Source of the DNA: a virus
IMG/VR virus record: IMGVR_UViG_3300006805_000213
Coordinates: 1 to 20,278 of that record
Length of the DNA: 20,278 bases
Reading direction: 5' to 3' (one strand)
The notes beneath the pieces were generated by a model. The model searched no databases. It saw nothing but the letters and a program-made list of their open reading frames with translations, and was not told the origin of the DNA. Below, piece by piece: positions 1 through 18,418 of this stretch. The position numbers and the translations under genes were made by a program. The stretch's first letter is position 1. Each line of letters opens with the position of its first letter.

Positions 1-129
1 GTTGAACGGCTAGCAATGATCGGCGTGACTGGCTCAAGCCTTGCGATAGGAGCCGGGCACATCATGACGCGCCGCGAGCACTTTTGCGGAGAATTTCGAG
101 ACACAGACGGCCTGACGGATAACGCATGA
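1..129 (+). CDS. C-terminal end of an unknown phage protein (partial)
   Basis: Frame 1 is open from the first base to a TGA at 127-129, giving 42 residues that begin VERLAMIGVTGSS and end GLTDNA. The other two plus frames stop within the first few codons, so this is the only plus frame that could carry a gene in from the left. The piece is neither strongly hydrophobic nor repetitive, and I do not recognise its family. It lies on the same strand as the Tad1-like gene about 100 bases downstream and is probably part of the same early or accessory cluster. Its stop overlaps an ATG in an ATGA arrangement that opens a 16-codon ORF. Real coding is likely but not proven, because only 42 residues are visible. 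Confidence 0.4.
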   Translation, partial: VERLAMIGVTGSSLAIGAGHIMTRREHFCGEFRDTDGLTDNA

Positions 130-176
130 AATCACAGGTGCACCGCAGCTTTATCGCGGGGCGTCCTGTGGATTGA
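126..176 (+). CDS. Possible 16-aa peptide ORF upstream of tad1
   Basis: An ATG at 126 overlaps the TGA of the upstream partial gene (ATGA) and opens a 16-residue ORF, MKSQVHRSFIAGRPVD, ending at TGA 174-176. It lies 51 bases before the Tad1-like start. It could be a translated leader peptide, a translational-coupling relay or chance. No ribosome binding site is evident beyond the overlap, and I do not recognise the peptide. Confidence 0.2.
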   Translation: MKSQVHRSFIAGRPVD

Positions 177-227
177 CGGGTTAGCCGCCACCCGTGGAAG
201 AGCGGAAACACTGAAAAGGAAACAACG

Positions 228-590
228 ATGCGCGAACTGAACGAACACAAGATCAACCCCGGCAACGACACACTTAAGATTACCGTGCTGGACGAACCAG
301 GCCATGGCGGCGCGAACCACGCCTACGACATTGAAGGCGGCGAGGCGGTGCCGACGCACCTGCGCTTCCAGAATGGTCCGATCAACGCGGACGGAAATGG
401 TGTGAACGGCATCACGCACGAGGCGCTGCTCGCGGTGCTGTGCGACCGGCTGCGTGGTTTTCAGGCTGGGCCGTATGCCTGCAAGGCGAACGCCTGCGCG
501 CTGACGCACTTGGAAGAGGCGCAACACTGGCTGCAACAACGAACCATCGAGCGGATGCGGCGCGGTGTTGAAGGCACGCACACGGTTTAA
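228..590 (+). CDS. tad1: Tad1-like anti-Thoeris cyclic-nucleotide sponge
   Basis: This 120-aa protein matches the Tad1 family of phage proteins (Acb2/Tad1 hairpin type). Tad1 proteins bind and sequester the gcADPR signals made by Thoeris TIR enzymes; some also bind CBASS cyclic oligonucleotides. The N-terminal half (about 1-55) is beta-rich and contains FQNGPI at 47-52. The C-terminal half (about 62-115) is helical and contains GFQAGPYAC at 77-85 and RRGVEGTH at 111-118. F78, N88, R105 and R109 have the same mutual spacing (10, 17, 4) as the residues I recall for CbTad1 (F82, N92, R109, R113), a uniform shift of four. The first pair serves the gcADPR pocket and the second the cyclic-trinucleotide pocket in that homologue. 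The ATG at 228 has AAAGGA at 215-220, seven bases upstream. Its place on the early strand, away from virion genes, suits a counter-defence gene. Ligand choice cannot be read from the sequence. Confidence 0.8.
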   Translation: MRELNEHKINPGNDTLKITVLDEPGHGGANHAYDIEGGEAVPTHLRFQNGPINADGNGVNGITHEALLAVLCDRLRGFQAGPYACKANACALTHLEEAQHWLQQRTIERMRRGVEGTHTV

Positions 591-621: not shown

Positions 622-647
622 GTGGCTAACGCTTAATGGCCACCAAT
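622..647 (+). other. Inverted repeat between tad1 and the coiled-coil gene
   Basis: GGTGGC and GCCACC flank a loop of about eleven bases shortly after the tad1-like gene. No T-run follows, so it is at best a weak or factor-dependent transcription end or an RNA-stabilising hairpin. It lies just upstream of the GTG proposed for the next gene and could also limit access to that start. Confidence 0.3.
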
Positions 648-651
648 AAAG

Positions 652-1320
652 GTGTCTACTTACCCCATGGCCGAGTTTTACACCACACCAACCAGAGAGC
701 AGGTAGTGCAGTGGGCAAGAGCGATTAGCAAATTCCATTCTGTTGTTATAGAGCGGTCACCAAGTTGGTTGGAAGGTTTTGCCACCCTAGCCCGAGCAGA
801 CCTAGAAGCAACCATCGCAGAGCAGGCGAAGGAGCTTACTGATTTACGACTTCAGTGCATAACGGACTTTGGACAGTACCAAGAAGCTCATGAGAAAATT
901 GCAGAGCAGGCGAAGGAGATCGAAGACATCAAAGGCGGTATGGCTTACCGAAATAGCCTAGTTGGCAGACTTGAATCTGAGCGCGACCAGCTTCGCAAGC
1001 AGATCGAAGAACTAGCCGAGGCTATCCGGGTGAAGGATGCTCTGTTATCCGAGATTGCCAAGCAGACGCCAGAGAAGCCCAATTACTGGGCATCGCGTAG
1101 CCAGTGCGAACGAAACAGTGCAGATGCAGAGGATGTACTGACCATTCAGCCATCCCCCGAAATCCTAGCCGCACGGGATCAGCGAGTCGCGGAGGCTTGT
1201 GCTAAGTTAATAGTTTCCGACAATGGAAAGTGCGATTCACATGTTATCGCCAGCCAGTTAGTGTGCGGCGAATGGAGGAAATACCTGTTACCGAGCAAGA
1301 ACAAATGGACCGCGCCCTGA
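652..1320 (+). CDS. Coiled-coil phage early-region protein, function unknown
   Basis: This 222-aa protein (from GTG 652; an in-frame ATG at 667 would give 217 aa) has a helical, charged centre from about 48 to 135, rich in E, K, Q, L and A. It reads as coiled coil and repeats IAEQAKE at about 54-60 and 83-89. The underlying DNA, GCAGAGCAGGCGAAGGAG, is duplicated near 817-834 and 902-919. The C-terminal part (about 155-222) is less regular and contains several cysteines. The architecture, a short variable head then coiled coil then variable tail, resembles accessory proteins of the Ea22/Ead type in lambdoid phages, but I see no diagnostic motif. AAAGGTG at 648-654 could serve as ribosome binding site for the ATG at 667. 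Function is unknown. Confidence 0.6.
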   Translation: MSTYPMAEFYTTPTREQVVQWARAISKFHSVVIERSPSWLEGFATLARADLEATIAEQAKELTDLRLQCITDFGQYQEAHEKIAEQAKEIEDIKGGMAYRNSLVGRLESERDQLRKQIEELAEAIRVKDALLSEIAKQTPEKPNYWASRSQCERNSADAEDVLTIQPSPEILAARDQRVAEACAKLIVSDNGKCDSHVIASQLVCGEWRKYLLPSKNKWTAP

Positions 1321-1476: not shown

Positions 1477-1674
1477 TCAGTAGTACCCATTCACGAATAC
1501 AACGCGCAACTTGTCGTCATAGTCTTCACCGACCGCAGGCGCAACGAGGTAATGCGATCTGACTTCGGGAAAGTAACCGCCTCGCCCTGCTTTGCAATGA
1601 CGTTCGGCGAAGTCGCGTAATTGCTCCATGTTCATGGCTGGCGGGAATGATGGCAGACGATGGTTGTCTGTCAC
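1477..1674 (-). CDS. Small hypothetical protein at the end of the lysis cassette
   Basis: This is the last gene of the late block. I place the start at GTG 1674, because it overlaps the TGA of the preceding gene (1673-1671) as GTGA, the same coupling seen upstream; a TTG at 1692 or an ATG at 1635 are alternatives. From GTG 1674 the product is 65 aa, with no signal peptide or membrane segment. It contains MEQLRDFAERHCK, then a tyrosine-rich tail ending VVFVNGYY. No family is recognised. Its position suggests a lysis-accessory or host-interaction role, but only context supports that. Confidence 0.5.
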   Translation of the reverse strand: MTDNHRLPSFPPAMNMEQLRDFAERHCKAGRGGYFPEVRSHYLVAPAVGEDYDDKLRVVFVNGYY

Positions 1675-2012
1675 TTCTGCAAGCCTAGCCAAGCGAGAAT
1701 GCCGCCAACAGCCAACACCGTCATATAGCCGAGCACCTTTTCAAGCACACTGACTTTGACCTTGCGCGCATCCTCTGCGGCTTCCTGTTCCTCTTTCATC
1801 TTCTTCGTGATCCATTCATGATGATCATGGTGCATCGGAGCATGTCCGTTCAAGACGGTATCGCGCAGGCTCTTTTCATCGGCCCATATCGCGTCAATCT
1901 TGCCGCCGATTTCCTCAATCACGCCGAGCATGAGCAGGAGCAACATCTTTAGATTGCTGTCATCGGTCTTGGCGATTGCGCTCATGATTTCGGATTTGGC
2001 GTTGAAGCTCAC
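1671..2012 (-). CDS. Tail-anchored membrane protein of the lysis cassette
   Basis: This 113-aa protein starts at GTG 2012, which overlaps the TGA of the holin gene (GTGA), so translation is probably coupled. It has a hydrophobic amphipathic helix near 22-32, a histidine-rich stretch (HAPMHHDHHEW, 57-67), a charged likely helical segment to about 90, and one clear transmembrane segment at about 92-110 near the C terminus. The layout, a cytoplasmic charged domain followed by a C-terminal membrane anchor, recalls XhlA-type accessory proteins that act with holins. There is no N-terminal signal or lipobox, so it does not look like an Rz or Rz1 spanin. A role modulating holin or lysis timing is inferred from position. 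Confidence 0.65.
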   Translation of the reverse strand: MSFNAKSEIMSAIAKTDDSNLKMLLLLMLGVIEEIGGKIDAIWADEKSLRDTVLNGHAPMHHDHHEWITKKMKEEQEAAEDARKVKVSVLEKVLGYMTVLAVGGILAWLGLQK

Positions 2013-2398
2013 TTTGTCGCTCCGGTTACTTTCTCATAAGTTCTATACCCGCCAAGGCCAAGCATGGCGACGAGCAGCGGCATCATCTCCGATACGTCTG
2101 CGGCTGTCAGCGCGACGCTGTAACCTGCGATAACGCATCCGGCCTTAACAACGGGCAGGCCGACCCAATTCCACGCGCAGCCAGCGCCGCAGACCCATCC
2201 GATGAATGGTCGCCATCCCGATACGAACCGGGAAGGATTTGATGCTTCTGCCTTGTTGATCTCTAGCTGGCCCATGACGACAGACGTAGCCATCGCTAGT
2301 TGCGCCCGTTCCTGCTCTGACTTGTCAGGCCATATCTTCCCGATGACCGTCGTCGCCAGATCAGCAACCGCGCCAATCCCTGTAATGTCTAATCCCAT
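2009..2398 (-). CDS. Holin of the 3-TM superfamily
   Basis: The 129-aa product (MGLDITGIGAVADL...) matches phage holins of the three-transmembrane family (PF11351 type). These form lesions in the inner membrane that release the endolysin. An amphipathic N-terminal helix (5-20) is followed by a charged segment with the family-typical NPSRFVSGWRPFIGW around 54-68. Hydrophobic segments follow at about 64-83, 86-100 and 104-120. The start is ATG 2398, not the longer in-frame extension: AAGGAG lies upstream, and the ATG overlaps the endolysin stop as TGATG. The gene sits directly downstream of the M15 endolysin and upstream of a tail-anchored membrane protein, a compact coupled lysis cassette. Confidence 0.85.
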   Translation of the reverse strand: MGLDITGIGAVADLATTVIGKIWPDKSEQERAQLAMATSVVMGQLEINKAEASNPSRFVSGWRPFIGWVCGAGCAWNWVGLPVVKAGCVIAGYSVALTAADVSEMMPLLVAMLGLGGYRTYEKVTGATK

Positions 2399-2823
2399 CA
2401 CGCAATCTCCTTGTAGCCGTTCCCGTTGTAAGCAAGGCACTGACCGCGCATCCGTGCATCAAATCCTATATGGCACCATGTCCCGTATTCGACGATAAGC
2501 TGATCGAAGCAAATCTCTGATTCGCGGATAGCATCGAACACTTCGCGCACTGAGCCGTAACCTGGGCAGGTGAAATCGACTGCCTCTCCGCGAACATGTG
2601 AGCTAGTAGCAGAACCGCGAACCGCGGCGTTCAATTCAGGCGAACGATAGCCAGAGGAAACAATCACCGGATGGCCGAGCAACTCTCGAACCTTGTCCAT
2701 GTGGTAGGCGGTGAAGCCGAGTTGATTCGCCGTCTCCATGCTTGGTGTGTTGTCGATACCGAGCCGAGCGGCAGTCTGCGAAAAGGTTAGTTCTTCAAGC
2801 GTGAAATATTTAGATAGCTTCAT
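2398..2823 (-). CDS. Endolysin, M15-family peptidase (VanY/D-Ala-D-Ala type)
   Basis: The 141-aa protein is a single-domain zinc peptidase of the M15A group that cleaves peptidoglycan stem peptides during lysis. Visible family features are VSSGYRSPELN at 55-65, the zinc motif SSHVRGEAVDF with H76 and D83, FDQLIVEY at 106-113 with likely catalytic E112, and WCHIGF at 117-122 with H118 as third ligand. The N terminus, KYFTLEELTFSQTA, is the usual opening of phage M15 endolysins. There is no signal peptide, so export depends on the adjacent holin. The ATG at 2823 overlaps the upstream gene's stop (ATGA), and its own stop overlaps the holin start (TGATG). Confidence 0.92.
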   Translation of the reverse strand: MKLSKYFTLEELTFSQTAARLGIDNTPSMETANQLGFTAYHMDKVRELLGHPVIVSSGYRSPELNAAVRGSATSSHVRGEAVDFTCPGYGSVREVFDAIRESEICFDQLIVEYGTWCHIGFDARMRGQCLAYNGNGYKEIA

Positions 2824-3239
2824 GGCTTGGTCTTTATGCGAATGGTGAAAACGTACTTGCAGCGCCCATGTAACTGATAATCAGTCCATCCGAAGCGCAG
2901 ATCGAGGAATCTTCCGGAGAATAGCGGGACCTGTCTGGATGACCATAAAGCCCAAGCCGGGCGCGGATCGGCTGGCACGCCAATCACGAAATAATTAAAT
3001 CGGTTCCCACCGTTGCGCCATAGCCAGCGCACTTTGTTGATGTAGCTGATCGGGCTGCTGCCCCATAGATGCTCAGCCTTCCACCCATCATCGCCGGTCA
3101 AGTCGTTGTCAATTGTCCCGATCCACTTGAACGGGAATGTGACGTCATTCTTGTGGCTGAATGCGACAGCGACGAATGCCAGCGGATAGCGGACCAGTAT
3201 GACCAGCATCCACGGCAGGAAGCGGAGCGCGTATTGCAT
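2820..3239 (-). CDS. Phage membrane protein (DUF7338-like), function unknown
   Basis: The product is 139 aa from ATG 3239; a GTG immediately before it is in frame, but the ATG overlaps the previous stop as TGATG. Hydrophobic segments at about 5-27 (LPWMLVILVRYPLAFVAVAF) form one or two membrane passes, followed by a soluble tryptophan- and arginine-rich domain with RNGGNRFNYFVIG and FGWTDYQLHG. I recall similar proteins beside phage tail fibre and lysis genes under a DUF7338-type label, but the exact family is uncertain. The gene overlaps the endolysin (ATGA), so it is translated as part of the lysis cassette. A role in lysis or superinfection exclusion is possible and unproven. Confidence 0.65.
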   Translation of the reverse strand: MQYALRFLPWMLVILVRYPLAFVAVAFSHKNDVTFPFKWIGTIDNDLTGDDGWKAEHLWGSSPISYINKVRWLWRNGGNRFNYFVIGVPADPRPAWALWSSRQVPLFSGRFLDLRFGWTDYQLHGRCKYVFTIRIKTKP

Positions 3240-3697
3240 CACAGCGTTTCGGCCAGTTCGAACATGGCGTCGACTTGGGCATCGGTCAGCCCGAGAGCGC
3301 CAGCTGCGCCGGCCAGGGTAGCGTCATCGCGGCGCCACTCTTGGGCCTTGTTGATAAAGGCGCGCTCAGCAAAGGTGCGTGCCGGGTCATTGGCCCATGC
3401 GTCATATGCTGTCGCCAATCCTGATCGGTCGATAGCCAACAGCCCTTGCAGCGCCGTGATTCTGGCGACCGGTTGCGGAAGCACTACGGGAGGCGGAAGC
3501 ACTACGGGAGGCGGAATGTCGACTTTCGACCACGACCCGTTTACGAACAGCTGCATTTTTCCTGCGGTAGCCGGGGGCGGCTTAATGGGTGTCGAAAAAG
3601 CGGGGATGAGAAAGACGCCAGGCTCGAGCGGAGATTCGTCGGCAATAGATTCTCCAAGGAGCAATCCGGATGTTGGGTGGTAGTTGAAAATTTTCAT
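3239..3697 (-). CDS. Tail fibre assembly / chaperone-like protein
   Basis: The product is 152 aa from ATG 3697 (MKIFNYHPTSG). The ATG at 3706 is only two bases after the fibre stop, and AAGGA is correctly spaced (8 bases) only for ATG 3697. The N-terminal half (1-58) contains LEPGVFLIPAFSTPIKPP and FVNGSW, typical of small proteins encoded after collar-type tail fibres that aid fibre assembly. A proline-rich hinge (about 62-76) is built from an 18-base tandem repeat. The C-terminal half (about 80-152) is a predicted helical domain with FAERAFINKAQEWRRDD. It lies immediately downstream of the fibre gene and its stop overlaps the next start. Assembly function follows from position and N-terminal resemblance. 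Confidence 0.65.
   Translation of the reverse strand: MKIFNYHPTSGLLLGESIADESPLEPGVFLIPAFSTPIKPPPATAGKMQLFVNGSWSKVDIPPPVVLPPPVVLPQPVARITALQGLLAIDRSGLATAYDAWANDPARTFAERAFINKAQEWRRDDATLAGAAGALGLTDAQVDAMFELAETL
3475..3516. repeat. 18-bp tandem repeat encoding a Pro/Val hinge
   Basis: GCGGAAGCACTACGGGAG occurs twice in direct succession (3475-3492, 3493-3510), followed by a six-base partial third copy. The unit is six codons and encodes PPVVLP-type hexapeptides in the fibre-assembly protein. Copy-number change by slippage would stay in frame. Confidence 0.9.
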
Positions 3698-3708
3698 TCC
3701 AGTCATCC

Positions 3709-4806
3709 TTAATACTTAATACAGGCGAGCAGCGCGATATTGCGCGGACGTGTCTCGGCCCCACCCGTCGCGTTAGTGTTATATGGGTTAAGACTTGAAC
3801 TACCAGAAGACTGGGGAGCGCCTCCTGATGTACCCAATAGAGCGCTTACCGAGTGAACGTGACTTTTTAGCTCATCTGCCTGAGCAGATCCAAACGCCCG
3901 GCCAGAGTCTATCCCGCGAGAATCGTCCCACCCACGAATAAACTCACCGCGCAAGTCCGGAATATTGAACGTAGTGGAGCCGTCTCCAACGCCAAATGTT
4001 GTTCCGATTGCCGTGAAAAGATTGGAGTATGTTGATCTCGATACAGCGGCTCCGTTAGCCTTCATGTACCCTGTGGGGGCTGTATTTCTGGCAAACACAA
4101 CAATCGCCCCTGCCTGAACTGTTGATATTCCGGTAAGAGAAGAACCGTCACCGTTCGGAGCCAGGACATTTGTCCCAACGACAAGATCAAGAAACATGCG
4201 CATCTGTGCTGCCGTCTTGTACATCCACCCGTCGTTTGTCGGGTTGATTACCAACACAGTATCAGCGCCGCCCGTCATGCTCGGGATCGATCCGGCGCTA
4301 GTTGCTGCCAGTTCCGCCGATGCGCTGGCAGCAACTGCTGCGCTCTCGGCGTCAGCCGCCGCGCTTTGAAGGTCGCCAATCAGATCATCAGGTGACGCGC
4401 TGGAAGAAATATTAACCTTGACCGCCCGGCCAACTTTCTCGGCAAGTTGTTGCGTGAGAATCGTCAGGCGATCAAGCGCGGAATTTATAACCGATGGATA
4501 GAACCCGCCTGCGTTGGTAAGCACGACAGGCTGCAGGTTAGCAACTTGCGAGGTGATCGTCGTCAGATGCCCAGATTCTGCTGCAGTAACCAGATTTACG
4601 GTTCCGCCCGGGTTGCTATCTTGATCCGCGTTCAGGCTGACGGTGTAGTGCGTCGTCAGTGTCAGCGTCGTTTCAACACCGGAAAGGTCTGCGCGAACGA
4701 CCAGCACGTCAGCCTCACTGAAAACCTTGAACGAGAACGGCAGGGCCGTCGTTATGCCGTTTCCGGTATAGGGACCGGCCTTGCGCGTTTCGCTTGCTAT
4801 CGACAT
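3709..4806 (-). CDS. Tail fibre with T7-type N-terminal adaptor and phage tail-collar domain
   Basis: The 365-aa protein begins with a T7 gp17-like virion-attachment domain (about 1-130; GPYTGNGITTALPFSFKVF near 11-29). An alanine/serine-rich helical segment follows (about 147-170, AAADAESAAVAASASAEL), probably a trimeric coiled coil. A collar domain follows at about 231-290 (TAPTGYMKANGAAV, FNIPDLRGEFIRGW). The tail ends ETRPRNIALLACIKY, the usual end of collar-type fibres. The host-recognition tip should lie in the C-terminal third. The ATG at 4806 has CAGGAG upstream. A copy of the 14-base boundary motif lies 48 bases before it. The next gene is the assembly partner. Confidence 0.88.
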   Translation of the reverse strand: MSIASETRKAGPYTGNGITTALPFSFKVFSEADVLVVRADLSGVETTLTLTTHYTVSLNADQDSNPGGTVNLVTAAESGHLTTITSQVANLQPVVLTNAGGFYPSVINSALDRLTILTQQLAEKVGRAVKVNISSSASPDDLIGDLQSAAADAESAAVAASASAELAATSAGSIPSMTGGADTVLVINPTNDGWMYKTAAQMRMFLDLVVGTNVLAPNGDGSSLTGISTVQAGAIVVFARNTAPTGYMKANGAAVSRSTYSNLFTAIGTTFGVGDGSTTFNIPDLRGEFIRGWDDSRGIDSGRAFGSAQADELKSHVHSVSALLGTSGGAPQSSGSSSLNPYNTNATGGAETRPRNIALLACIKY

Positions 4807-4854
4807 GCGCCGAACTCCTGAATGATTGCCGCAAGGCTATCCGTCAGAAGTTCG

Positions 4855-4868
4855 GATACGCGCACCCT
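4855..4868 (-). promoter_or_regulatory. Late module boundary motif AGGGTGCGCGTATC, copy 1
   Basis: Read on the minus strand, this exact 14-mer begins at the base after the TAA (4871-4869) of the giant ejection-protein gene and ends 48 bases before the tail fibre ATG. The bases TATCCG (from within the motif outward) pair with CGGATA at 4843-4838 across a nine-base loop. Function is unknown; a late promoter, RNA element or recombination boundary are candidates. Confidence 0.7.
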
Positions 4869-7800
4869 TTAACGCGGCTTCTGGAACCCGAAAGCGATGG
4901 CTGCCGGGTTATTCGTTTCTCCTTCTATCAGCGCCTTGGTTCCAGTGACAGTCCGGTTTATCTGGGCGCTCGGCAGGCCGAACAAGTCGCCGATCAGATT
5001 GACCGATGCCTTTCTGAATGCGTCGTCGAACTCACCTTGATAGACCTGCTTGGCGAACTTTCCGGAATCGACCACCAGGCGCAGCCCGGCAGGCCCTTGA
5101 TAATCTCGGCCCATATCGTTTGCGCCGGTCAGTGTCTTTGCCACGTCGGAAAACTCACGCACGTAAACCATCATTCCCATCATGTAGTCGATCTGGGCAG
5201 CAAGCAGTTTCTTGGCGATCTTCTCGGGATCGTCATCGCCCGAGTCTCCCGGCGTGATGGCCGCCTTCAAGGCCATGCCGAGCATCAGCGGGATCAGGTA
5301 CAGCAGAGCGTAGTCGGCTACCAGTTTGGCCTTGCTCTTTTCCGTCATGGTCTGGGCCACGCCCAGATTCATGGCCGTGTTCATGAAGGAATAGAACACG
5401 GTGAATAGTTTTCCGCTTGCTCCGGTGCGCTCTATGCCGGCCTGATCCTTGAGCATGCCGCCGCCCTGGGCGTCGATTACGGCCTGATCGGCTAGCGATA
5501 CAGCGCGCTCGTCGTCATTTCCTTCGGATACGGCTTTCTCATAGGCGCCCCACCACGTCGGCACATCGACGGCCTGCTGGAAGCGCATCATCAGAAAATA
5601 GGCGTAGTGCCCGACGAACTCCTTGACGGCCGTCTGCCCTTCTACTTGGTTGCGCAGTTCGTTGAGTTCGCGGAAGCGAGTGCGAGCCCGGTTCTCCATG
5701 AATGACGACATCGAATTTACTTCTCGAGTCAGCGCAATCGGGTGCGCGATGTACTTTGCCACGCCTCGGCCTACCCACTTAGCGCCGACGCGAACGATGG
5801 ATTGGGTAATGCCGAGCGGTTGCATGGCTGCGCTCATGACATTGAACCCGAGACCAGCGACGCTGACCGACTGGCGAAGGTAATTCACCGCAATATCGCC
5901 AGCGTCAGTCGATGCCTTGTCACCTTCGGCAATATCGACAGACCATTTCTTGAACTGTTGCTTTACCTCGGGGCCGTAGTGGTTGCGGATGGCGCTGTCG
6001 ATGGTCTGCGAGCGCAGCAAACGGTTGGTATCGATCAGCCACTCATGCCACGACAGATCATGAATCACGTCATTGACGCCGGAATACACGCCGGCCAGCG
6101 AGTACAGCAGGGGGCGGCCATTGACTTCCTCGGCCCGCGTCTTGGTGAAGCTGCGCCGCGTGGTGGCCGAAGTGTAGGCGCCCTGCAGTTGGCGCTTTGC
6201 ACCTTCCGCGTCGGCGTGTTCCTCGGCGCGCTGGCTAGCAGCCGGATCGTACTTGACCGGGTAATATCCGCCGCGCATCTGAACTGCCTGGCCGTCTTCT
6301 GTCTGCACGGTGAAAGGCGTCGGCGCGATCCATTCCGGCTCTTTTCCATAGACGCGCCACTCCTTGGCCGCGATCTGCGGGCGATACGACTCAAAGTGAT
6401 CCCATACCTGTTGCACGGCATGCCACTCAGCGGCGGTAAGCGTCCGAAGGATTGGTGCAAGCTGCGCGTCGGTCCATACCTCGCCGCCCTGCAAGCGCTG
6501 CAGGTTGCTGGCGTTGCCGACATTGAGCGCGATGGCAATGCGTGCCTCTCGGGTCAGGCTGCGATTGATCAGCGGGAAAAATACTTTGGCCTGCATCTTG
6601 CCGAGCTTGAACACTGGGTCGAGGATTTCCGACAGCTTGGCCGTGGCTTCTGCCCGCATGGTCGTTTCCCTGTCGCCGCGCTCATTGGCTGCGCGGACGA
6701 AGTATTCCCACATCGGGCCGCCGTCCTTGCCGCCGTCCATGATCCGCGCCCACATGGCCGACTTGATATGCGCCGCCCAGAAGTTGCGCATCTTCTGCAG
6801 CGACTTGCCGAGCACCGTGTCAGGCGTGCGGGTTTCTGCCTTGCGATCCCCGGCATGCTCGACGATGCTGGCCGCGATCTCGTCGCGGATAGCCTCATAC
6901 GCACGCTGGTCGCGGGCCGTCAGTAGCTTGTGCTTGAGCCGGCCAAGGTGTTCGATCTGCTTGATGGTATCGATCAGGCCGCGCAGTTCCTCGACGGTCA
7001 TGTCCTTGTAGGACTTGCGGAAAGCCTCATTGACCAACTGCTGCGGAATATCCGGCTCAAGGCCGGCATCCTGCTGCGCGGTCATCCACTCGGCCAGTGC
7101 CTTGCGCTTGTCGATGGCCTTGCCGCTCTGCCCCTTGCGCAGATCGAACCGTTCGAGCAAGGCGTCGATCTGGTCGGTGTAGTCCGCATCCAGCCCCTTG
7201 CGCTTTCCGGCGCTGTCAAACGTCTTGAGGTAACGCAAGCCCTTCTCGACTTCATCCTGGGCGTCGTAGGCGGCGCGCGTGGCGTAGGTGTTGATCAGCT
7301 GGTTTCGCTTCTCTGCCGCTGCCGTGGCTAGGTCGCCGGCCTTGCTGGCCTTCTCTGTCGCCTTGGCCGCCCGCACTTCGCCAGCCGCGTACTGCCCCGG
7401 CTTGATGTCGCGCACCTTGAGGCGGGCGATCATCGCGGCGGCGTATTCCTTGGCCGCAATGGCCAGCGTCGTGCGCTTGCCAGTAGCCTTTTCCAGCATA
7501 GCCAGTTCGGTGGCAACCATGCGGGCGCGAACGTCGTTGTGGATGGCCTTGTCTGCTGCCTTCTTGATGGCTTCCTCGCTCGACAGGTCGCCGAACTGTT
7601 CCAGCATGCGCTGATCCGTAAGCGCCTCGATCTCTGCCTTCGGCGCCTCGGATGCAGCCAGTCGGCGCACCAGTTCGTCGCCGGACGTAAAGCCGAACAT
7701 TTCGGCCACGATGTCGGGATGGATGCCGTCTTTGCGCACCATGCGCAGCTTGTCCAGATGCTCGATGATCTCGACCGGCAGGCCGATCTCGGTCAGGCTC

Positions 7801-10800
7801 GAACGATCCAGACGACCGGCTGCCAGCCCCATCGGGTTGGCAACTTGGTCGCCCGGTCGAATCGGCTGATTGCCTGCGTAGTCGTAGGCCGTAGAGAACT
7901 GCGAGTCGCCGCCAAGTTCTGCCTTGAACTTTTCCTCAAGTTCGCGGATGTCCAACTTGCCGTTTTCGTCTTTTTCCAGATACCCGTATTGGCTCAGTGC
8001 CTCGGCCATGCCGTCGATCGACAATCCACCCTCGACACGCCAGAGCGGTTTGCCGAATAGTCCGCTGGTCGGCTTGTCGGCAGGATCGACGCCCCACGTC
8101 TTGACCACATCGTCTTTGTTGATCCCGCCCAGCTTGGCGATGGCAGCGAACAGCGAGTCGATGGTTTCGTCGAGGACGTTCGGGTCGGACTTCGGCGGCG
8201 TGACCGGATCGATCTGGTCGTCGGCCGTCATCTTGCCGGTCAGGAATTGCCACGCCCGATATATCGGCTGGCTCATGACCTCGGCGCGCACGCCCATCTT
8301 GACCTCGGCGCGCTTCGCTGCGGACTCCTTTTGTAGTTGCTTGATAACCCGGCCGCGGGCGTTGTGCAGCCATTGCATGTCGCGCAGGCCACGCGCCTGC
8401 AAGTCCTCGATGGCCTCATTGGTCGCGTCAGTGCCGAGTGCCTGATAGTCGGCGAACTCTGCCGGCGTCATGCCGATCTGCTCGGGCGAGGTGAAGAGTG
8501 GCATCATCGACCGGCCTTGCTCGGCCATTGTGATCTGCTCAGTCGTCGCCAGCATCCGGTCGAACACACCGCGCACCTCGTCAGTCAGTTCGACGTTCAG
8601 TGCTTTCAGGTCACGATAGACGTTCATCATCCAGGCGCGGAATCGCTGGAACAAGCCCTGCATTTCGATGCTTGGCGAATTACCCTCGAACAGATATGAC
8701 TCGAAGCCTCGGGCGAACTTTTCGTGATAGCTGCGCTTTTCCTCGAAGTCGAGCGCGTTCCACTCTGACAAATCCTTGATGCCGAACCAGTCGAGCGTCG
8801 CCTGCATGTCCTTGACGACTTGCTGTTCGCCCGGCTTTAGCGTATCGGCGCCATGAATGGCCGCGTCCTGCATCAACTGGCCGGCGAGATCGGCCTGCAC
8901 TTCGAGGAAGAAATGGCCGGATTCGTGCAAAAAACTTGATAAATCAGCACCATTCAACAAAGTTACTGTTAAAGTAGACGGGTTAAATGTCGCTCTAGGA
9001 GAAACACCTTGGCTAAAACTGTTCCTATTATTTGCGCCAAATGCGGCGCTACCTTCCTTAGATTCCAGTCCAGGATAAAACGCGCCTCGCGCAACTTTTG
9101 CAGCCTCGACTGCTACCTCGCGGACAAGAAAGCTAACCGAGTCGGCTGCATCTCCAAGAGCACCGGATACCACCAAGTCAGCATTGAATGCCGGACTGTT
9201 CTCGTTCATCGCCTCGTCATGGAGCGCCACCTTGGCCGCAGCCTCGGACCCGAAGAGGTTGTTCACCATATCAACGGGAACCGATCTGACAATCGCATCG
9301 AGAACCTTCGCGTCATTGAGAATAGCGCCGCGCATATGCGTGAGCATGGGCGCGAGAGATGGGACACTGCCGATGCGGTTAGACTGCGAGAGGCTGGTTA
9401 CACCTACAAGGATATTGCCAAGTTGCTCGGGGTTTCTCGCGGCAGTTCCGTCTACAAACGACTGCGCGACAATGGCCTTGCTATCCCCTTTGTCCGCAAT
9501 GGAGTTAAGCGCGACCGATCCATCCTGTAGAGCCGCTTGATCAAACTGCTGCCCAGCAATAGACTCCGCACCAATCCGCAGAGGATACCGCTTGAACATC
9601 TCCTCTGGCGTCGTGCCCATGCGCGCAGCCTGAACCGCGTAGAAGTTGCCGACCATAGACGAATACGCATCATTGACCGACTCCGTGAATCGCCCGGCAG
9701 TCGTCAGTTGATCCTTGATCGTGGTCTTGACGGCCTGCGCCGACGCCTTGAATGTATGGTCGTCGCTCTGCTCTCCAAGCACCCGCTCGACCTCGGCTTG
9801 CAAATCCTTTGCCGCCCCGCTCTGCAGGTACTCCTGCGCCGTTGCCTGGGTGAAGCCGCCCGGTTCCATCGCAACGTGCGGCAATAGCGATTGCTCAAGT
9901 TCTGGCCCGGCCATCGTGCTCATGAGATCGGCAATAGGGATGCGGATGTCGTGTCCACTCTCGGCAGCAGTCTGCAACTGCTCGGCAACTGCCGGAATAG
10001 CTTGCGCCATCTGCTCGGCAAGGCCGGACTGCGCCAGCGCCTCAGGAGAGACATAGACAGCATCGCGGCCTTCTTCGAGTATCGACTGGAAGAAGCCTTG
10101 CGCGGTTTCATAATCGCGCTGCACCAGCTTCGACGCCTCGGCCATCTTGTTCAACTGGCCAAGCAAGTCACCCATCTGCGTTGCTTGCTGCGCCTCCTGG
10201 CCTCGGTTCATGTAAAGGCTGACGCCCTTCATGATGGCAACCTGGCCCCCGCCGCCGAAGGCCGTAGCCAGTGCAGTCTGGGCGGCCGCATCGGGCCGTT
10301 CCTTTAGGTAGTCGGTGAATGGCTTGTCTGGATTGAGCACGGCCCATTCGTTGAGATCCTGCAAGTGCGTAGCGATCTGCTCGCCGCCCTGCTCTTTCAG
10401 TAAATACTCGATGGCCTTTGTGCCGAACTGGCCGGGCTTGAGCATGGAGAACAAGGCCGGCATGCCGATCATTTCGGTGCCGGCTTCGATCACGCCTTGC
10501 GATGCGCCGAAGGCCAAAGACTTCGGAACGCTGACGCCCTTGTCGCGCGCTTCGCCATACGCCTGGCCGCCAGTGTTGAGGCCCATCGATACAAGCAATG
10601 GCGACGTGCCGCCAGATCCAAAGGCAAGCGGTAGCTGCAGAAGATTTAGGCCAAGCGACTGCATGCCTGAATACCATGACGATTCTAGCATTCCGTTCGA
10701 TTTCGGCATCAGCCCGGCCGCCATGTCGCGCTGGCCTTTGCCGTATTCGGCGAACTTGTTGGAGAGCGGAGCTCCAAGGAAGTCCGGAAGCAGATCCGCG

Positions 10801-11219
10801 CCAGCCCGGGCAACACCCCATGCGCCCTCGTTGAACTTCGGAACAGCAGAAACGATTGACTTGCCTGTTCCAGCAATTCCGCTTCCGAGACTATAGAGCG
10901 CGGATTCGATCTTGCTCAAGCCATCGACATCATCGTGGGCGACTTTTGCCTTTTCAACATCAGACAGAAGCGCGGCCGTGCTCGGCGAGGTCTTTGCCAG
11001 CGTGTCGAAATCGATGCTGCCGATGGCATCCTGCCGCTTGATCTCGTTCGGCATGGAAAACACGGTATCCACCGGAACGCCAGTTCGCCGGGCGACGCGC
11101 TTGGCCTCGGCGTAGGCGTCTGGGTTGGTATCCGACGCAGCAGAAAATCCCACCCTGGCGGTTTGTGCGGGGTCGGGTTGTAAGGCGCTTGTGACTGCTG
11201 CGTCGAATTCGTTGCTCAT
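4869..11219 (-). CDS. Giant ejection / internal virion polyvalent protein interrupted antisense by an HNH gene
   Basis: The product is 2116 aa from ATG 11219, which overlaps the transglycosylase stop (ATGA); the frame extends eight codons further upstream. It resembles the very large internal virion proteins of BPP-1-like podoviruses, which are delivered into the host with the DNA. The N-terminal part has VARRTGVPVDTVFSMPNE (about 41-58) and hydrophobic Gly/Ala segments. An HExxH sequence (H765-E-S-G-H769) lies in ADLSSFLHESGHFFLE, a conserved segment of such proteins. Long helical, charged regions fill about 860-1500. Membrane-like segments occur near 1972-1988 and 2005-2021. Residues 564-737 are read from the strand opposite a complete HNH endonuclease gene, so this stretch is probably an inserted passenger rather than native domain. 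The reading frame is nevertheless unbroken. Enzymatic activity is not established. Confidence 0.85.
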   Translation of the reverse strand: MSNEFDAAVTSALQPDPAQTARVGFSAASDTNPDAYAEAKRVARRTGVPVDTVFSMPNEIKRQDAIGSIDFDTLAKTSPSTAALLSDVEKAKVAHDDVDGLSKIESALYSLGSGIAGTGKSIVSAVPKFNEGAWGVARAGADLLPDFLGAPLSNKFAEYGKGQRDMAAGLMPKSNGMLESSWYSGMQSLGLNLLQLPLAFGSGGTSPLLVSMGLNTGGQAYGEARDKGVSVPKSLAFGASQGVIEAGTEMIGMPALFSMLKPGQFGTKAIEYLLKEQGGEQIATHLQDLNEWAVLNPDKPFTDYLKERPDAAAQTALATAFGGGGQVAIMKGVSLYMNRGQEAQQATQMGDLLGQLNKMAEASKLVQRDYETAQGFFQSILEEGRDAVYVSPEALAQSGLAEQMAQAIPAVAEQLQTAAESGHDIRIPIADLMSTMAGPELEQSLLPHVAMEPGGFTQATAQEYLQSGAAKDLQAEVERVLGEQSDDHTFKASAQAVKTTIKDQLTTAGRFTESVNDAYSSMVGNFYAVQAARMGTTPEEMFKRYPLRIGAESIAGQQFDQAALQDGSVALNSIADKGDSKAIVAQSFVDGTAARNPEQLGNILVGVTSLSQSNRIGSVPSLAPMLTHMRGAILNDAKVLDAIVRSVPVDMVNNLFGSEAAAKVALHDEAMNENSPAFNADLVVSGALGDAADSVSFLVREVAVEAAKVARGAFYPGLESKEGSAAFGANNRNSFSQGVSPRATFNPSTLTVTLLNGADLSSFLHESGHFFLEVQADLAGQLMQDAAIHGADTLKPGEQQVVKDMQATLDWFGIKDLSEWNALDFEEKRSYHEKFARGFESYLFEGNSPSIEMQGLFQRFRAWMMNVYRDLKALNVELTDEVRGVFDRMLATTEQITMAEQGRSMMPLFTSPEQIGMTPAEFADYQALGTDATNEAIEDLQARGLRDMQWLHNARGRVIKQLQKESAAKRAEVKMGVRAEVMSQPIYRAWQFLTGKMTADDQIDPVTPPKSDPNVLDETIDSLFAAIAKLGGINKDDVVKTWGVDPADKPTSGLFGKPLWRVEGGLSIDGMAEALSQYGYLEKDENGKLDIRELEEKFKAELGGDSQFSTAYDYAGNQPIRPGDQVANPMGLAAGRLDRSSLTEIGLPVEIIEHLDKLRMVRKDGIHPDIVAEMFGFTSGDELVRRLAASEAPKAEIEALTDQRMLEQFGDLSSEEAIKKAADKAIHNDVRARMVATELAMLEKATGKRTTLAIAAKEYAAAMIARLKVRDIKPGQYAAGEVRAAKATEKASKAGDLATAAAEKRNQLINTYATRAAYDAQDEVEKGLRYLKTFDSAGKRKGLDADYTDQIDALLERFDLRKGQSGKAIDKRKALAEWMTAQQDAGLEPDIPQQLVNEAFRKSYKDMTVEELRGLIDTIKQIEHLGRLKHKLLTARDQRAYEAIRDEIAASIVEHAGDRKAETRTPDTVLGKSLQKMRNFWAAHIKSAMWARIMDGGKDGGPMWEYFVRAANERGDRETTMRAEATAKLSEILDPVFKLGKMQAKVFFPLINRSLTREARIAIALNVGNASNLQRLQGGEVWTDAQLAPILRTLTAAEWHAVQQVWDHFESYRPQIAAKEWRVYGKEPEWIAPTPFTVQTEDGQAVQMRGGYYPVKYDPAASQRAEEHADAEGAKRQLQGAYTSATTRRSFTKTRAEEVNGRPLLYSLAGVYSGVNDVIHDLSWHEWLIDTNRLLRSQTIDSAIRNHYGPEVKQQFKKWSVDIAEGDKASTDAGDIAVNYLRQSVSVAGLGFNVMSAAMQPLGITQSIVRVGAKWVGRGVAKYIAHPIALTREVNSMSSFMENRARTRFRELNELRNQVEGQTAVKEFVGHYAYFLMMRFQQAVDVPTWWGAYEKAVSEGNDDERAVSLADQAVIDAQGGGMLKDQAGIERTGASGKLFTVFYSFMNTAMNLGVAQTMTEKSKAKLVADYALLYLIPLMLGMALKAAITPGDSGDDDPEKIAKKLLAAQIDYMMGMMVYVREFSDVAKTLTGANDMGRDYQGPAGLRLVVDSGKFAKQVYQGEFDDAFRKASVNLIGDLFGLPSAQINRTVTGTKALIEGETNNPAAIAFGFQKPR
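8997..9001 (+). promoter_or_regulatory. Ribosome binding site for the antisense HNH gene
   Basis: AGGAG lies seven bases before TTG 9009 on the plus strand, inside a locally AT-rich stretch. It decides the non-ATG start of the HNH gene. On the opposite strand the same bases encode part of the giant virion protein. Confidence 0.7.
9009..9530 (+). CDS. HNH homing endonuclease (free-standing, antisense inside a virion gene)
   Basis: The 173-aa protein starts at TTG 9009, supported by AGGAG seven bases upstream. The N terminus is a zinc ribbon (C9, C12, then C31 and C35 in NFCSLDCY). The HNH_3-type core follows at about 63-100: VLVHRLVMERHLG, then EEVVHHINGNRSDNRIENL, with the HH pair and both conserved asparagines. 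The C-terminal part (about 117-155) looks like a DNA-binding helix-turn-helix (YTYKDIAKLLGVSRGSSVYKRL). It should cut DNA and promote its own spread into related phages. It lies opposite codons 564-737 of the giant ejection-protein gene, with identical codon boundaries. It uses no TTA, CTA or TCA among its 14 leucines and 13 serines, which is exactly what keeps the opposite frame open. Transcription opposes the late operon, so expression probably comes from early plus-strand reading. Confidence 0.9.
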   Translation: MAKTVPIICAKCGATFLRFQSRIKRASRNFCSLDCYLADKKANRVGCISKSTGYHQVSIECRTVLVHRLVMERHLGRSLGPEEVVHHINGNRSDNRIENLRVIENSAAHMREHGRERWDTADAVRLREAGYTYKDIAKLLGVSRGSSVYKRLRDNGLAIPFVRNGVKRDRSIL

Positions 11220-13384
11220 TTGCGTGACACTTTCACGTTCCAATAGGCGTTCATCAGTTGGGCGTCAGTCGGGTTATCAATGCCCTGCCGCTTGAATGCT
11301 GCCTTGAGGTTGTCCTTGACGTCGCCAGCCAGGTCGCCGACCTTCATGCCGAGCATCGGGCCGGACTTGTTCGAGAGCCATCCTCGGAACTCTGCGTTTT
11401 TGGCGAACAGCGCATCGATATGCGTGGCCACCTCGGCGTCGGAAAACTTCTTTCCGGACTCGCGCTGCGCTGAGTAAAAATATTGGTCAACGAATCGACG
11501 GATGCCGCCGATGCGCGCCGCATCGCTGCCGCCATCATCCTTTGGCGAAGGATCAATCTGCAGCATGCGCAGGCGTTCGTCGAGCGTCTGCTTGATGGCG
11601 CCGGTATTCAGATCACCGGCCGCTCCGGTGACGGACTTGCCCGACGCCTTGGCGCGCTCCTGGCTGAAATGCTTGAAGTCGGACTCGGACAATTCACGGC
11701 GCAGCGCGTAGAAGGCGTCGTCGCTCATGCTGGCAAGCTGGCCGGGGTTGCTCGTCAGCTTGTTGTAAAGCCAGGGGCTTGTCGTGTCGTCGCCCTTGGC
11801 GATCTTCTGCGCGAAGCCGATCACGTTGTCGATTTCCTTGGGCGGAATAGCCGCGCGCACACTGGCCGGCAGATCGGAATACCGCCCACCATTCTCGACC
11901 ACGGCACGCATGGCCGCCGCGACGCTTTCATCCTCGCGTTGCTTGATGGCCTTGGTCTGTTCCTCGAACATGCGCTCTGCCTCGACGCGCGCCGTCTTGT
12001 AACGGCTCGGGCTATTCGCCAGGCGAGGATCAGCACGCAGCTTTTCATCTATCTCGGCAAAGGTCGGGCGCGCTGCCTGACCCTGACCGGCGTCGTATTC
12101 CTTCATGTTTTTGGCGACGTAGTTGCGCGTTTCCAAAGGCAGGAAATCGAGCCACTGCTTGACCGGAACAGTCGGGTCGTTCTTGTTCAGCGACACCGAA
12201 CGGCCTGCCTTCTTGATGGCTTCCTGCAGTGCGCCAGGGCCGGCGTTGTAGGCGGCATACGACTTGGCAAGGTCGCCGCCATTGGTCTGCAGTTGCTTCT
12301 GGAAATAGGCGAGGCCAATGGCCTTATTGTAGGCCGGGTCGGTCCTGTAACGATTCTCGTCCCACTCAAGGCCAGCCAGCTTGGCAGCCTCGGGAGCGGT
12401 CGCCGGCATAACCTGGGCGATGCCAATGGCGCCCTTGGGCGAGGTCAGCGGCGTGCCGTCCTTGGCGAACTGCTTGCCGCCCGACTCAGTGCCGACGGCG
12501 ATATTGAAGGCGCGCTCGGCGTCGCTGGTCTGGATGCGCGGCGCCAGTTGGCGGATCACTTCACTCGCTGCGGCAGTGCCGACGCGGGCGTCCATTTCCT
12601 TGGTAATGTGGCCACGCACGGAAAGGATGTCGTCGGCGTCCATCTGGCCACTGAACTTTTTCAGGTAGCCCTCGGCATAGGCCGGGTCGTTCTGTTCGAG
12701 CGCGGATAGCAAGGCAGTCTTGTGGCCATTGCTCGTCAGCTTGCGCGCCTGCGCTTCTTGCCACTCGGCGGACTTGCCGAGTAGTTGGCCCTGCCGATAT
12801 GTCTCGGCCTTGATGCGATCGACGGCTGCGCCTACCGCTTCCGGGTCGCGCCAGTTCAATCCGATCTCGCGCAGTGCAGTACTCTGCACCCCTTCGGATA
12901 CCGACAGCGAGTAGGTCTTGAATTCGCTGGCTTCGTGCTGGATTGCCTGGCTGCGGAATGAGGTCAGCAGGTTGTTCGCGTGCAGCGAGAATGCCTGCCG
13001 CTGGGCGTCGTTTCCTAGCGTTCCTGATATCTTGTCCACGCTCTTCTTGAGCGTGTCGCCATACTCTTCGGCAAGGGGCTTTCCATCAGGCCGCTCAAGT
13101 GCGGCCTGCCCTTTGATATTAGTAAATCCCACCTGCTTGTCGTAGGTCAGGCGCAGCGCCTGCTCTTTGGCTTGGTTGAGCGCATCATCGACGCGCAACT
13201 GATTTGCCTGTTGCGCCACATCAAGCGATATGCGCGTCATCGCGTCGCCGGCTGCGTTCATTCCGCGCGCCATCTGCTGCGTCTGCTGGCCGGCAATGTC
13301 CGGAATCTCTGGAACGGTCAGGCGAGACTGCGGCAGGGCGTTAGGACTGGCTTGAAAACTATCGTACGTCGGGACTCTCGGCAT
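11216..13384 (-). CDS. Ejection protein with lytic transglycosylase (SLT) domain
   Basis: This 722-aa virion protein carries a goose-type/SLT lytic transglycosylase domain at about 288-425. The catalytic glutamate is E300 in GTESGG, followed by KGAIGIAQVMP (317-327), AAYNAGPGA (377-385) and LETRNYVAKNM (417-427). Such proteins open the peptidoglycan locally during genome entry. The N-terminal 280 residues are helical and glutamine/alanine-rich, with no signal peptide, as expected for a packaged protein. The C-terminal 290 residues are also mainly helical. ATG 13384 lies four bases after the stop of the preceding ejection-protein gene, with only a weak ribosome binding site. Its stop overlaps the start of the giant protein. 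The three genes form one ejection module. Confidence 0.9.
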   Translation of the reverse strand: MPRVPTYDSFQASPNALPQSRLTVPEIPDIAGQQTQQMARGMNAAGDAMTRISLDVAQQANQLRVDDALNQAKEQALRLTYDKQVGFTNIKGQAALERPDGKPLAEEYGDTLKKSVDKISGTLGNDAQRQAFSLHANNLLTSFRSQAIQHEASEFKTYSLSVSEGVQSTALREIGLNWRDPEAVGAAVDRIKAETYRQGQLLGKSAEWQEAQARKLTSNGHKTALLSALEQNDPAYAEGYLKKFSGQMDADDILSVRGHITKEMDARVGTAAASEVIRQLAPRIQTSDAERAFNIAVGTESGGKQFAKDGTPLTSPKGAIGIAQVMPATAPEAAKLAGLEWDENRYRTDPAYNKAIGLAYFQKQLQTNGGDLAKSYAAYNAGPGALQEAIKKAGRSVSLNKNDPTVPVKQWLDFLPLETRNYVAKNMKEYDAGQGQAARPTFAEIDEKLRADPRLANSPSRYKTARVEAERMFEEQTKAIKQREDESVAAAMRAVVENGGRYSDLPASVRAAIPPKEIDNVIGFAQKIAKGDDTTSPWLYNKLTSNPGQLASMSDDAFYALRRELSESDFKHFSQERAKASGKSVTGAAGDLNTGAIKQTLDERLRMLQIDPSPKDDGGSDAARIGGIRRFVDQYFYSAQRESGKKFSDAEVATHIDALFAKNAEFRGWLSNKSGPMLGMKVGDLAGDVKDNLKAAFKRQGIDNPTDAQLMNAYWNVKVSRK

Positions 13385-13388
13385 GGGG

Positions 13389-13943
13389 TTATCCGTTGCT
13401 CGGCGTGTTGGTCAGTGCACCCGCCTTGTTCAGTTGATACCAGGAGGACGCCACGCTGCCGGCACTGCCCAGCAAGGAACTGCCGGCAGCCCCGAAAGCA
13501 CTCAGAGAGTCAGCGGCAGATCGCTTTATAATCGCGTCGTTCTGCGAATTTACAGCCTGCATGCGATAGCCCCACGCCGAGCGCACGGCATTGGCCTCGA
13601 TGGTGTTGCGGTCGGTTTCCTTCATGATGTCGGTGGATGCTTGCAGTTCTGCTGCATTGCCAACGCCGAGATCAACCCCGTTGGCGGCCAGCGCGACACG
13701 TTGCGCACTCTTGACCTTGCCGGCTTGCATCGTGACTCTGCTGATTTCCTGCTGGCCTTGATTGAGAACGGACTGCGCGCCAAGCTCTGCAATGCGCGCA
13801 TTGGTATCAGCCAGGAATGCCTGGCCTTCGAGGTTGATCTTTGAAACTTTGGCCGAGTAGAAGCTGCCGATTGCACCAGAAAGCGCGCCGCCGATGTTCA
13901 GAAATAGACCGCCATACCCTAGCGATGGTGTTGTGGTTGCCAT
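13389..13943 (-). CDS. Small internal virion / ejection protein
   Basis: The 184-aa product from ATG 13943 begins MATTTPSLGYGGLFLNIGG. A GTG at 13982 would add 13 residues, but it abuts the only strong purine tract, and the ATG reads more naturally. A glycine-rich hydrophobic helix (about 8-28) is followed by a long helical body with repeated A, Q, V and K (SAKVSKINLEGQAFLADTNARIAELGAQ), then a small-residue C terminus. This composition and place, between nozzle and transglycosylase, match gp14-like internal core proteins that help form the DNA-entry channel. No specific motif proves it. The boundary motif lies 45 bases upstream of the ATG. Confidence 0.7.
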   Translation of the reverse strand: MATTTPSLGYGGLFLNIGGALSGAIGSFYSAKVSKINLEGQAFLADTNARIAELGAQSVLNQGQQEISRVTMQAGKVKSAQRVALAANGVDLGVGNAAELQASTDIMKETDRNTIEANAVRSAWGYRMQAVNSQNDAIIKRSAADSLSAFGAAGSSLLGSAGSVASSWYQLNKAGALTNTPSNG

Positions 13944-13988
13944 TGCGGACCCCGGAAGAATGCAGAGAAAATAGCCCCGCACCTTCCG

Positions 13989-14002
13989 GATACGCGCACC
14001 CT
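13989..14002 (-). promoter_or_regulatory. Late module boundary motif AGGGTGCGCGTATC, copy 2
   Basis: The exact 14-mer starts one base after the TAG (14006-14004) of the nozzle gene and lies 45 bases before the ATG of the first ejection-protein gene. Its outward end runs into CCGGAAG, which can pair with CTTCCGG near the next start across a loop of 24 bases. It marks the switch from tail-tube to ejection genes. Confidence 0.7.
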
Positions 14003-14003
14003 A

Positions 14004-16055: not shown

Positions 16056-16056
16056 A

Positions 16057-16662
16057 TCAGCGGCCCGCTATCCAGCCAGGCGCGTGCGTCGGGTCGCTCT
16101 TGCGCTGATTGGCGTCTGACACCTTGGCATAGGAAAACACTAGATTGAAATTCGTGTAGCAGGATTTTGCTGCCGCCTGCCCTGCCGTGCCCTTGATAAG
16201 CGGGCCAGCGATATGCGAGGCCAGCAACCAGGCCAGCGCATCGGCGAACAGCGGCGAGAATTTCGTCGTGTCTGTGACGCGTGCTACGTAGCGCGCAGTC
16301 GCATTCTGCAGGTCAGTGTATATCAACGCTGCACCATCATCTCCGGACTCGGCGGCATAGGGCGCGCTCTCGTCATCGGCCGATGCGGTGGCGTCTAGCA
16401 CAGAGACAATGCGCAGCGCGCCGTTCGGTTCGGCGTAGGCATGCGCCCAATTGAATGAATCGGCGGTTAGTTCGGATAGAGTCGTCCGCCGCGTGGCGAA
16501 TTTCCAGTCGTGCATTTCAAGCAGACTGTCGCGGGCAATAGGGTAGAACCGACTGCAGTGCTCGGCCTGGGCCGAACCTTCTGGCGGGTCGATGCTGGCC
16601 ACGGTGGCCGAGTCACCAAGCCGGGACAGTGCAAGGTTGCACAAATCAACTTCTGAGGCCAT
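16057..16662 (-). CDS. Head-to-tail adaptor / tail tubular protein A-like
   Basis: The 201-aa product begins MASEVDLCNLALSRLGDSA, the conserved opening of T7 gp11-like adaptor proteins. It continues with IDPPEGSAQAEHCSRFYPI and ARDSLLEMHDWKFATRR (about 24-60), also family-typical. Near the C terminus, WLLASHIAGPLIKG is the usual helical segment. Such proteins form the ring that joins portal and tail tube. ATG 16662 is preceded by AGGAG and AAGGA; the former lies just after the terminator hairpin. The next gene, the nozzle, starts one base after its stop. Confidence 0.88.
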   Translation of the reverse strand: MASEVDLCNLALSRLGDSATVASIDPPEGSAQAEHCSRFYPIARDSLLEMHDWKFATRRTTLSELTADSFNWAHAYAEPNGALRIVSVLDATASADDESAPYAAESGDDGAALIYTDLQNATARYVARVTDTTKFSPLFADALAWLLASHIAGPLIKGTAGQAAAKSCYTNFNLVFSYAKVSDANQRKSDPTHAPGWIAGR

Positions 16663-16676
16663 TCCTTGCTACTCCT

Positions 16677-16702
16677 AAAAAAGCGGGGGCCGAAGCCCCC
16701 AC
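16677..16702 (-). terminator. Intrinsic terminator between capsid and tail modules
   Basis: On the minus strand GGGGGC-TTCG-GCCCCC forms a strong GC stem with a UUCG tetraloop, followed at once by six T residues (16682-16677). This is a textbook Rho-independent terminator. It lies between the 63-aa gene and the adaptor gene and would reduce expression of tail genes relative to capsid genes. Confidence 0.88.
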
Positions 16703-16730
16703 GAACTGCTTCCCAACCACGAGGAGAAAA

Positions 16731-16922
16731 TCAAACGAGATCGGATGCGCCTTTGGTTTCTTCCTTGGCCTTCAGTTCGCCCTTGGCCTTCTTGCCATTG
16801 CTTTCTGCAACGGAGGCGGAAGGAGCGAACCACGAAGCCTTGGAGCCATCGGGCACATCGAACTTGTCGCCGACCTGGCGGAGCTTCCCGAAATAGCCGG
16901 CTTTGGTTGCGATTACTTGCAT
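16731..16922 (-). CDS. Small capsid-module protein, function unknown
   Basis: The 63-aa protein begins MQVIATKAGYFGKLRQVGDKFDVPDG, a pattern found in short phage proteins encoded after the capsid genes. The second half is lysine/glutamate/alanine-rich and probably disordered (ESNGKKAKGELKAKEE). ATG 16922 lies ten bases after the cement-protein stop, with AAGGG close to that stop as a likely ribosome binding site. It is the last gene before the terminator. A minor head or completion role is possible; no motif supports a firm call. Confidence 0.7.
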   Translation of the reverse strand: MQVIATKAGYFGKLRQVGDKFDVPDGSKASWFAPSASVAESNGKKAKGELKAKEETKGASDLV

Positions 16923-16932
16923 GGCCTATCCC

Positions 16933-17355: not shown

Positions 17356-17379
17356 TTCAGTTTCCTCACATGGAGATTG

Positions 17380-17400: not shown

Positions 17401-17407
17401 CTAGGGA

Positions 17408-18403: not shown

Positions 18404-18418
18404 TTCAAAGCTCCTTGA

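Follow-up and report, generated by a model that had tools for sequence, protein, structure and literature searches.

The short open reading frame (ORF) at the left end of a phage contig raises two questions: whether it encodes a sponge for immune signals, and by what route such a gene came to lie there. The contig, IMG/VR virus record IMGVR_UViG_3300006805_000213, was analysed over its 20,278 nucleotides (hereafter, the window). The ORF, tad1, lies on its plus strand, and the features discussed below are collected in the table.

Features of the window, in order of position
Feature	Coordinates	Strand	Remarks
3' end of a 5'-truncated ORF, 42 aa	1..129	+	stop codon overlaps attC; end of the preceding cassette
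attC of the preceding cassette, R'' GGATAAC to R' GTTAGCC	117..186	+	found by covariance model and independently by regular expression
core site GTTAGCC, start of the tad1 cassette	180..186	+	homology between phages starts here
Shine-Dalgarno-like AAGGA	216..220	+	7 nt 5' of ATG; conserved in several sister cassettes
tad1, 120-aa ORF	228..590	+	predicted Tad1-family sponge, by homology and predicted fold
inverse core GGCTAAC (624-630), then attC remnant	624..650	+	3' attC half missing or degenerate
ORF of 217 aa, next gene after the cassette	667..1320	+	weak coiled-coil-type PHROG matches only
late block of a BPP-1-like podovirus: lysis, tail fibre, internal virion, tail and head genes	1477..20278	-

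Sequence and predicted fold confirm that the ORF encodes a full-length Tad1 homologue. The preliminary description had called it Tad1-like and proposed a profile search and structure prediction as checks, and both bear the assignment out. CbTad1 entries (7uav, 8kbe and others) were the best matches of a phmmer search against the PDB, with E values of about 2e-17 over residues 23-119 and 43% identity across 96 aligned residues; CmTad1 matched at 3e-16, and PHROG 2428 at 1.5e-32. The Pfam model Acb2_Tad1_hairpin, which spans the helical hairpin only, scored 20.6 bits, below its gathering cut-off of 27. An AlphaFold2 monomer model (pLDDT 83.5, with residues 51-60 and the C-terminal tail poorly predicted) places helices at residues 64-80 and 86-112 after an N-terminal antiparallel sheet, as expected of the Tad1 fold. 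In a Foldseek search of this model against the PDB, the 20 structures with E values of 0.001 or less were all Tad1, and the next match had an E value of 2.5. Sequestration of gcADPR and of cyclic nucleotides by Tad1 is established (PMC12043709). Sponging of both kinds of signal is thus the likely, predicted function of the window protein.

Residues 78, 88, 105 and 109 of the window protein are F, N, R and R. Their proposed equivalence to CbTad1 F82, N92, R109 and R113 is exact in the HMMER alignment, where they fall on positions 83, 93, 110 and 114 of the 7uav chain, provided that this chain carries one extra N-terminal (tag) residue. Partly on the basis of a review (PMC12043709), we take F82/N92 to form the gcADPR pocket of CbTad1 and R109/R113 its cyclic-trinucleotide pocket. 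Across 40 aligned homologues, the four residues are invariant. The earlier proposal that both pockets are intact therefore stands as regards Tad1 identity and residue conservation, as seen in sequence and fold; absorption of gcADPR and CBASS signals by the phage is a fair inference from a family of proven sponges. The flanking motifs FQNGPI and RRGVEG, which had been taken as features of the family, are conserved in the subfamily of the window protein and are not family-wide, CbTad1 reading FQKGAR and ERNVLG at these places.

From about position 1477 to the end of the contig, the minus strand belongs to a podovirus related to Bordetella phage BPP-1, which gave a megablast match over window positions 4858-18674; Pfam models for holin, M15 endolysin and collar proteins were matched in the late block. 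The next gene after the cassette has no relative that we could find among phage or viral proteins. Small genes beside tad1 had been put forward as further counter-defence candidates, yet the plus-strand ORFs at 667-1320 and 1275-1433 lack a convincing family match and nothing marks them as such. Because the array lies at the contig end and is separated from recognised phage genes by the ORF at 667-1320, which has no relatives, its connection to the BPP-1-like genes is, for this contig, only as sound as the assembly. Within the late block, a plus-strand HNH endonuclease ORF (9009-9530; HNH_3, 5e-14; PHROG, 2e-20) runs antisense inside a minus-strand ORF of 2124 aa (4869-11243) that encodes a virion protein like Bbp10 of BPP-1. 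The frame of the latter is intact, both strands are open at the HNH ORF, and this region aligns poorly with Bbp10.

The boundaries of tad1 bear on the second question. Cores of the GTTAGCC/GGCTAAC type bound integron cassettes, and such cores, which are reverse complements of each other and part of a 13-nt inverted repeat (92%), stand on either side of the gene. The site upstream of tad1 scored 50.7 bits (E = 1.2e-9) with a covariance model run over 528 kb on both strands, and 2.6e-10 in a separate scan, having been left out of model building. It overlaps the end of a truncated ORF without a family match in PHROGs. Integron cleavage would presumably fall between G180 and T181. As judged from these boundaries, tad1 of the window is an integron gene cassette that extends from the first base of the core (180) to the last base of the inverse core (630). 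An intact attC 3' of the ORF is present in the sister cassettes G001, G002 and G007 and absent from the window copy, where R'' and a remnant are all that is left (7.5 bits, E = 0.061 in the full-model scan). The window gene is therefore more aptly described as cassette-derived: it stands last in an array and its attC is degenerate. Since its downstream site is truncated, this copy is probably no longer excisable and probably fixed in place.

The attC model was seeded with ten sites from two contigs that carry close tad1 homologues (L002 and L003), aligned by sequence alone; inspection of these two and of L010 showed tandem attC sites between short ORFs. RNAalifold recovered the attC layout from the ten sites: R'' pairs with R' and L'' with L', the two helices being set apart by an unpaired spacer and the second one carrying a single bulged base, with 97% of cells paired and a covariation of 0.52 against 0.17 in shuffled alignments and at most 0.07 when the alignment was slid. 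The best matches to the model reach 1e-14. Counted over whole contigs or fetched parts, matches numbered 15 in G001, 10 in G002, 5 in G009, 3 each in G007 and G008, 2 in G003 and 1 in G005, and within the closest group only L005, a fragment of 5 kb, lacked them. For 25 complete cassettes in succession, the start core was compared with the complement of the end core of its own cassette, and the agreement was better than in any of 20,000 shuffles. Folded as single-stranded DNA, the bottom strands of four attC sites did only slightly better than shuffles (z about -1.3), and no Rfam model matched the sites. Outside these counts, the distant tad1 locus L016 has a suggestive attC-like match (E 0.003). 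At L040 (27-522), and also at L041, the stop codon of a tad1 gene with about 62% identity overlaps a long site resembling attC (E 0.055, likewise left out of the counts) that contains the start codon of a probable methyltransferase gene; these loci may represent a second lineage of tad1 cassettes.

The nine closest homologues in IMG/VR encode proteins 95-99% identical to the window Tad1. The DNA common to the window and these nine amounts to only about 350-510 bp, 81-89% identical, and the sequences outside it differ completely; in L002 to L010, homology to the window is roughly limited to the cassette and the flanks are unrelated. The common block coincides with window positions 180 to 630, with an imperfect likeness slightly past the end, where attC sites are alike themselves. 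The carriers of these arrays are phages. A terminase gene follows soon after the array in G001; in G005, tad1 is followed within 0.7 kb by a terminase gene and then a portal gene; G009 holds the array, intI, rusA, a primase-helicase gene and a terminase gene on one contig; G003 carries a head-tail adaptor and G002 a tail protein J. In a comparison with seven other phage contigs, Tad1 was the only protein that the window had in common with any of them; G001 has two or three further proteins in common with G007/G008, and for a few other pairs the overlap is one or two genes. Several unrelated phages thus hold one tad1 module. The tad1 stretch of G003 has 62% GC against about 40% nearby. Eight cassette copies gave dN/dS values of 0.006-0.09 at dS values of 0.2-1.0; the Tad1 protein has been kept nearly unchanged while silent sites diverged, which is strong purifying selection. 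In the tree, the tad1 genes from cassettes form a single branch, with weak support (88/21). A search for distant DNA similarity between window positions 1-2400 and phages returned nothing.

Three other explanations of the locus were weighed against a predicted sponge on a phage cassette. The cassettes might be bacterial, so that tad1 would be a gene of a host array, either in a chromosomal integron beside a prophage or in a chimeric contig. Integron arrays are usually chromosomal, the window array lies at a contig end, and positions 640-1436 have no known relatives, all of which would fit. Nevertheless, we regard this origin as improbable. Terminase and portal genes lie near tad1 in G005, the array of G009 shares a contig with phage genes, and that of G001 leads into a terminase. 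Moreover, no cassette-type tad1 was found in 84,980 bacterial and archaeal genomes, where the best of four matches (in Herminiimonas, Janthinobacterium, Noviherbaspirillum and Psychrobacter) reached 68% identity, and plasmids held no copy above 60%. In the window itself, plus-strand genes converge on minus-strand lysis genes, which is the circular gene order of BPP-1. A somewhat less likely account makes tad1 an ordinary moron, moved by homologous or illegitimate recombination, with the inverted repeats being terminators or chance and no integron involved. It draws on the 39 more distant tad1 loci (57-82% identity), the majority of relatives, which lie in phages without an attC at E <= 1e-3, and on the degenerate downstream attC of the window, whose copy may now be a plain resident gene. 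It leaves unexplained the strength of the attC matches, their covariation, the complementarity of each cassette's own cores, the tandem arrays and the intI gene, and a search of the cassette ends found no intrinsic-terminator-like site.

Least likely of the three, in our judgement, is that the Tad1 fold serves here in another role, for instance as a virion component, instead of as a signal sponge. Chain I of PDB 8y6v (gp184, 230 aa) has a Tad1-like C-terminal domain that matches the window Tad1 at E 2e-11 and may link the fold to a virion-associated protein, and some homologues in Bacillus and Lactococcus phages are annotated "structural protein". However, the window protein has a single-domain length like that of CbTad1, with all four pocket residues invariant, and tad1 moves by itself, as a cassette, between phages whose virions are unrelated. 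A review also places the Tad1 homologue orf184 in CBASS-resistant phages (PMC12043709).

We therefore consider it very probable that the window encodes a predicted Tad1-type sponge on a mobile gene cassette of the integron type, which sits in a phage-borne array or descends from one. The protein most likely assembles as CbTad1 does, which would make it a hexamer of three dimers; its F78/N88 pocket would be expected to bind gcADPR made by TIR proteins, and its R105/R109 pocket cyclic trinucleotides. With these signals bound, Thoeris and CBASS effectors would stay off and the phage could evade immunity. The cassette would comprise one ORF with its own ribosome-binding site between GTTAGCC and GGCTAAC, in or from a tandem array, and integron integrases, the host's or in one case the phage's own, would excise and insert such cassettes. 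Unrelated phages might thus acquire tad1 as a module through integrase recombination. The integrase of G009 matches the integron integrase model TIGR02249 at 465.7 bits (cut-off, 265) and is 58% identical to IntI1. No integron integrase above the cut-off was found in the other tad1 carriers searched, which would thus need a host enzyme. The intI gene of G009 (L010, IMGVR_UViG_3300044990_001033, 6823-7839) is complete and adjoins rusA; it closes the array on the 3' side and is oriented like a cassette, which is an unusual position for intI. Virus Rctr41k, a record from a DAMO enrichment, carries an integron-integrase-like gene (KX853513.1, 4686-5639) whose product is 45% identical to the G009 IntI.

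Among the products of other cassettes, in these arrays and in further phage arrays, are N6/N4 DNA methyltransferases, a Dam methylase, an RNA ligase, PAPS reductases, a DHH-type protein, a pentapeptide-repeat protein and a Lar-like protein, and several of these are plausible candidate counter-defence genes. A possible wider reading, which we hold only tentatively, is that a pool of integron cassettes, enriched in genes for counter-defence (the Tad1 sponge, DNA methyltransferases, the Lar-like protein, the RNA ligase and perhaps the DHH phosphoesterase), is common to unrelated phages and reshuffled by integron integrases that are sometimes phage-encoded, with the integron as a platform for the exchange of anti-immunity functions. 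Two scans with DNA patterns also turned up about 20 more viral contigs in which attC matches numbered two or more; among those searched, nine had a PHROG 2 terminase and none an integrase above the cut-off.

Several single loci in these arrays deserve separate mention. In L098 (9288-10100, minus strand), a cassette between two attC sites encodes a DHH/DHHA1-like phosphoesterase, with a weak Pfam score just under the cut-off, which is a candidate nucleotide-signal hydrolase. The RNA ligase cassette of L100 (9693-10433, plus strand; PF09414, 2e-21) is a candidate for repair of tRNA cleaved by host defences. The 58.5-kb contig L146 (IMGVR_UViG_3300022208_000278) combines at least 12 attC sites and small unknown ORFs with a terminase, and has no integron integrase. 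A Tad2-like gene (PF11195, E 1e-22) on another array-bearing viral contig, G030 (20773-21021, minus strand), was considered as an array cassette and rejected, lying far from the attC sites.

Integron gene cassettes are mobile units familiar from the spread of antibiotic resistance; sedentary and mobile integrons store antibiotic-resistance genes and, according to recent reports, anti-phage defence genes as well. Here, the cassette format carries a predicted counter-defence gene, and this cassette turns up again in phages whose backbones are unrelated. The pattern suggests an exchange of ready-made anti-immunity modules between phages. If this exchange is driven by integrases, it would provide a concrete and testable route for the swapping of immune-evasion genes across phage families. 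It would also give a simple rule for finding unknown anti-defence genes, namely ORFs bounded by attC sites in phage genomes. In the literature searched, we found neither Tad1 and integrons together nor a nucleotide-sponge cassette common to unrelated phages. The Tad1 cassette common to unrelated phages thus appears to be new, whereas phage integrons and sponging by Tad1 were already known.

Bordetella phage BPP-1 (Rauchvirus) resembles the window in its late genes (about 71-76% similar, as DNA or protein, in the best stretches), but it has no attC at E <= 1e-3, and its gene content differs from that of the window at the lysis/tail-fibre end, where its reverse-transcriptase tropism cassette sits. 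The annotated Tad1 proteins of the Bacillus phages SBSphiJ7 and SPG24 are 42-45% identical to the window protein and come from a different class of phage. With CbTad1 and CmTad1 (PDB 7uav, 7uaw, 8smd, 8kbb-8kbh), the window protein shares the fold and the four ligand residues, whereas its beta-hairpin is shorter, as indicated by a 7-residue alignment gap, and its gene is encoded as an integron cassette. What sets the intI of G009 apart from that of class 1 integrons (IntI1) is its position, 3'-terminal in the array and oriented like a cassette. Integrons and clusters of attC sites in phages have been described, with methyltransferase cassettes for which a counter-defence role was suggested (Qi et al. 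2023, PMC9892861). The phage integrons and CALINs of that study resemble those found here in having attC arrays without an integrase or with intI and DNA methyltransferases among their cargo; in the parts of the paper cited here, no nucleotide sponge appears in the cargo, while in our set one such predicted sponge cassette recurs in unrelated phages.
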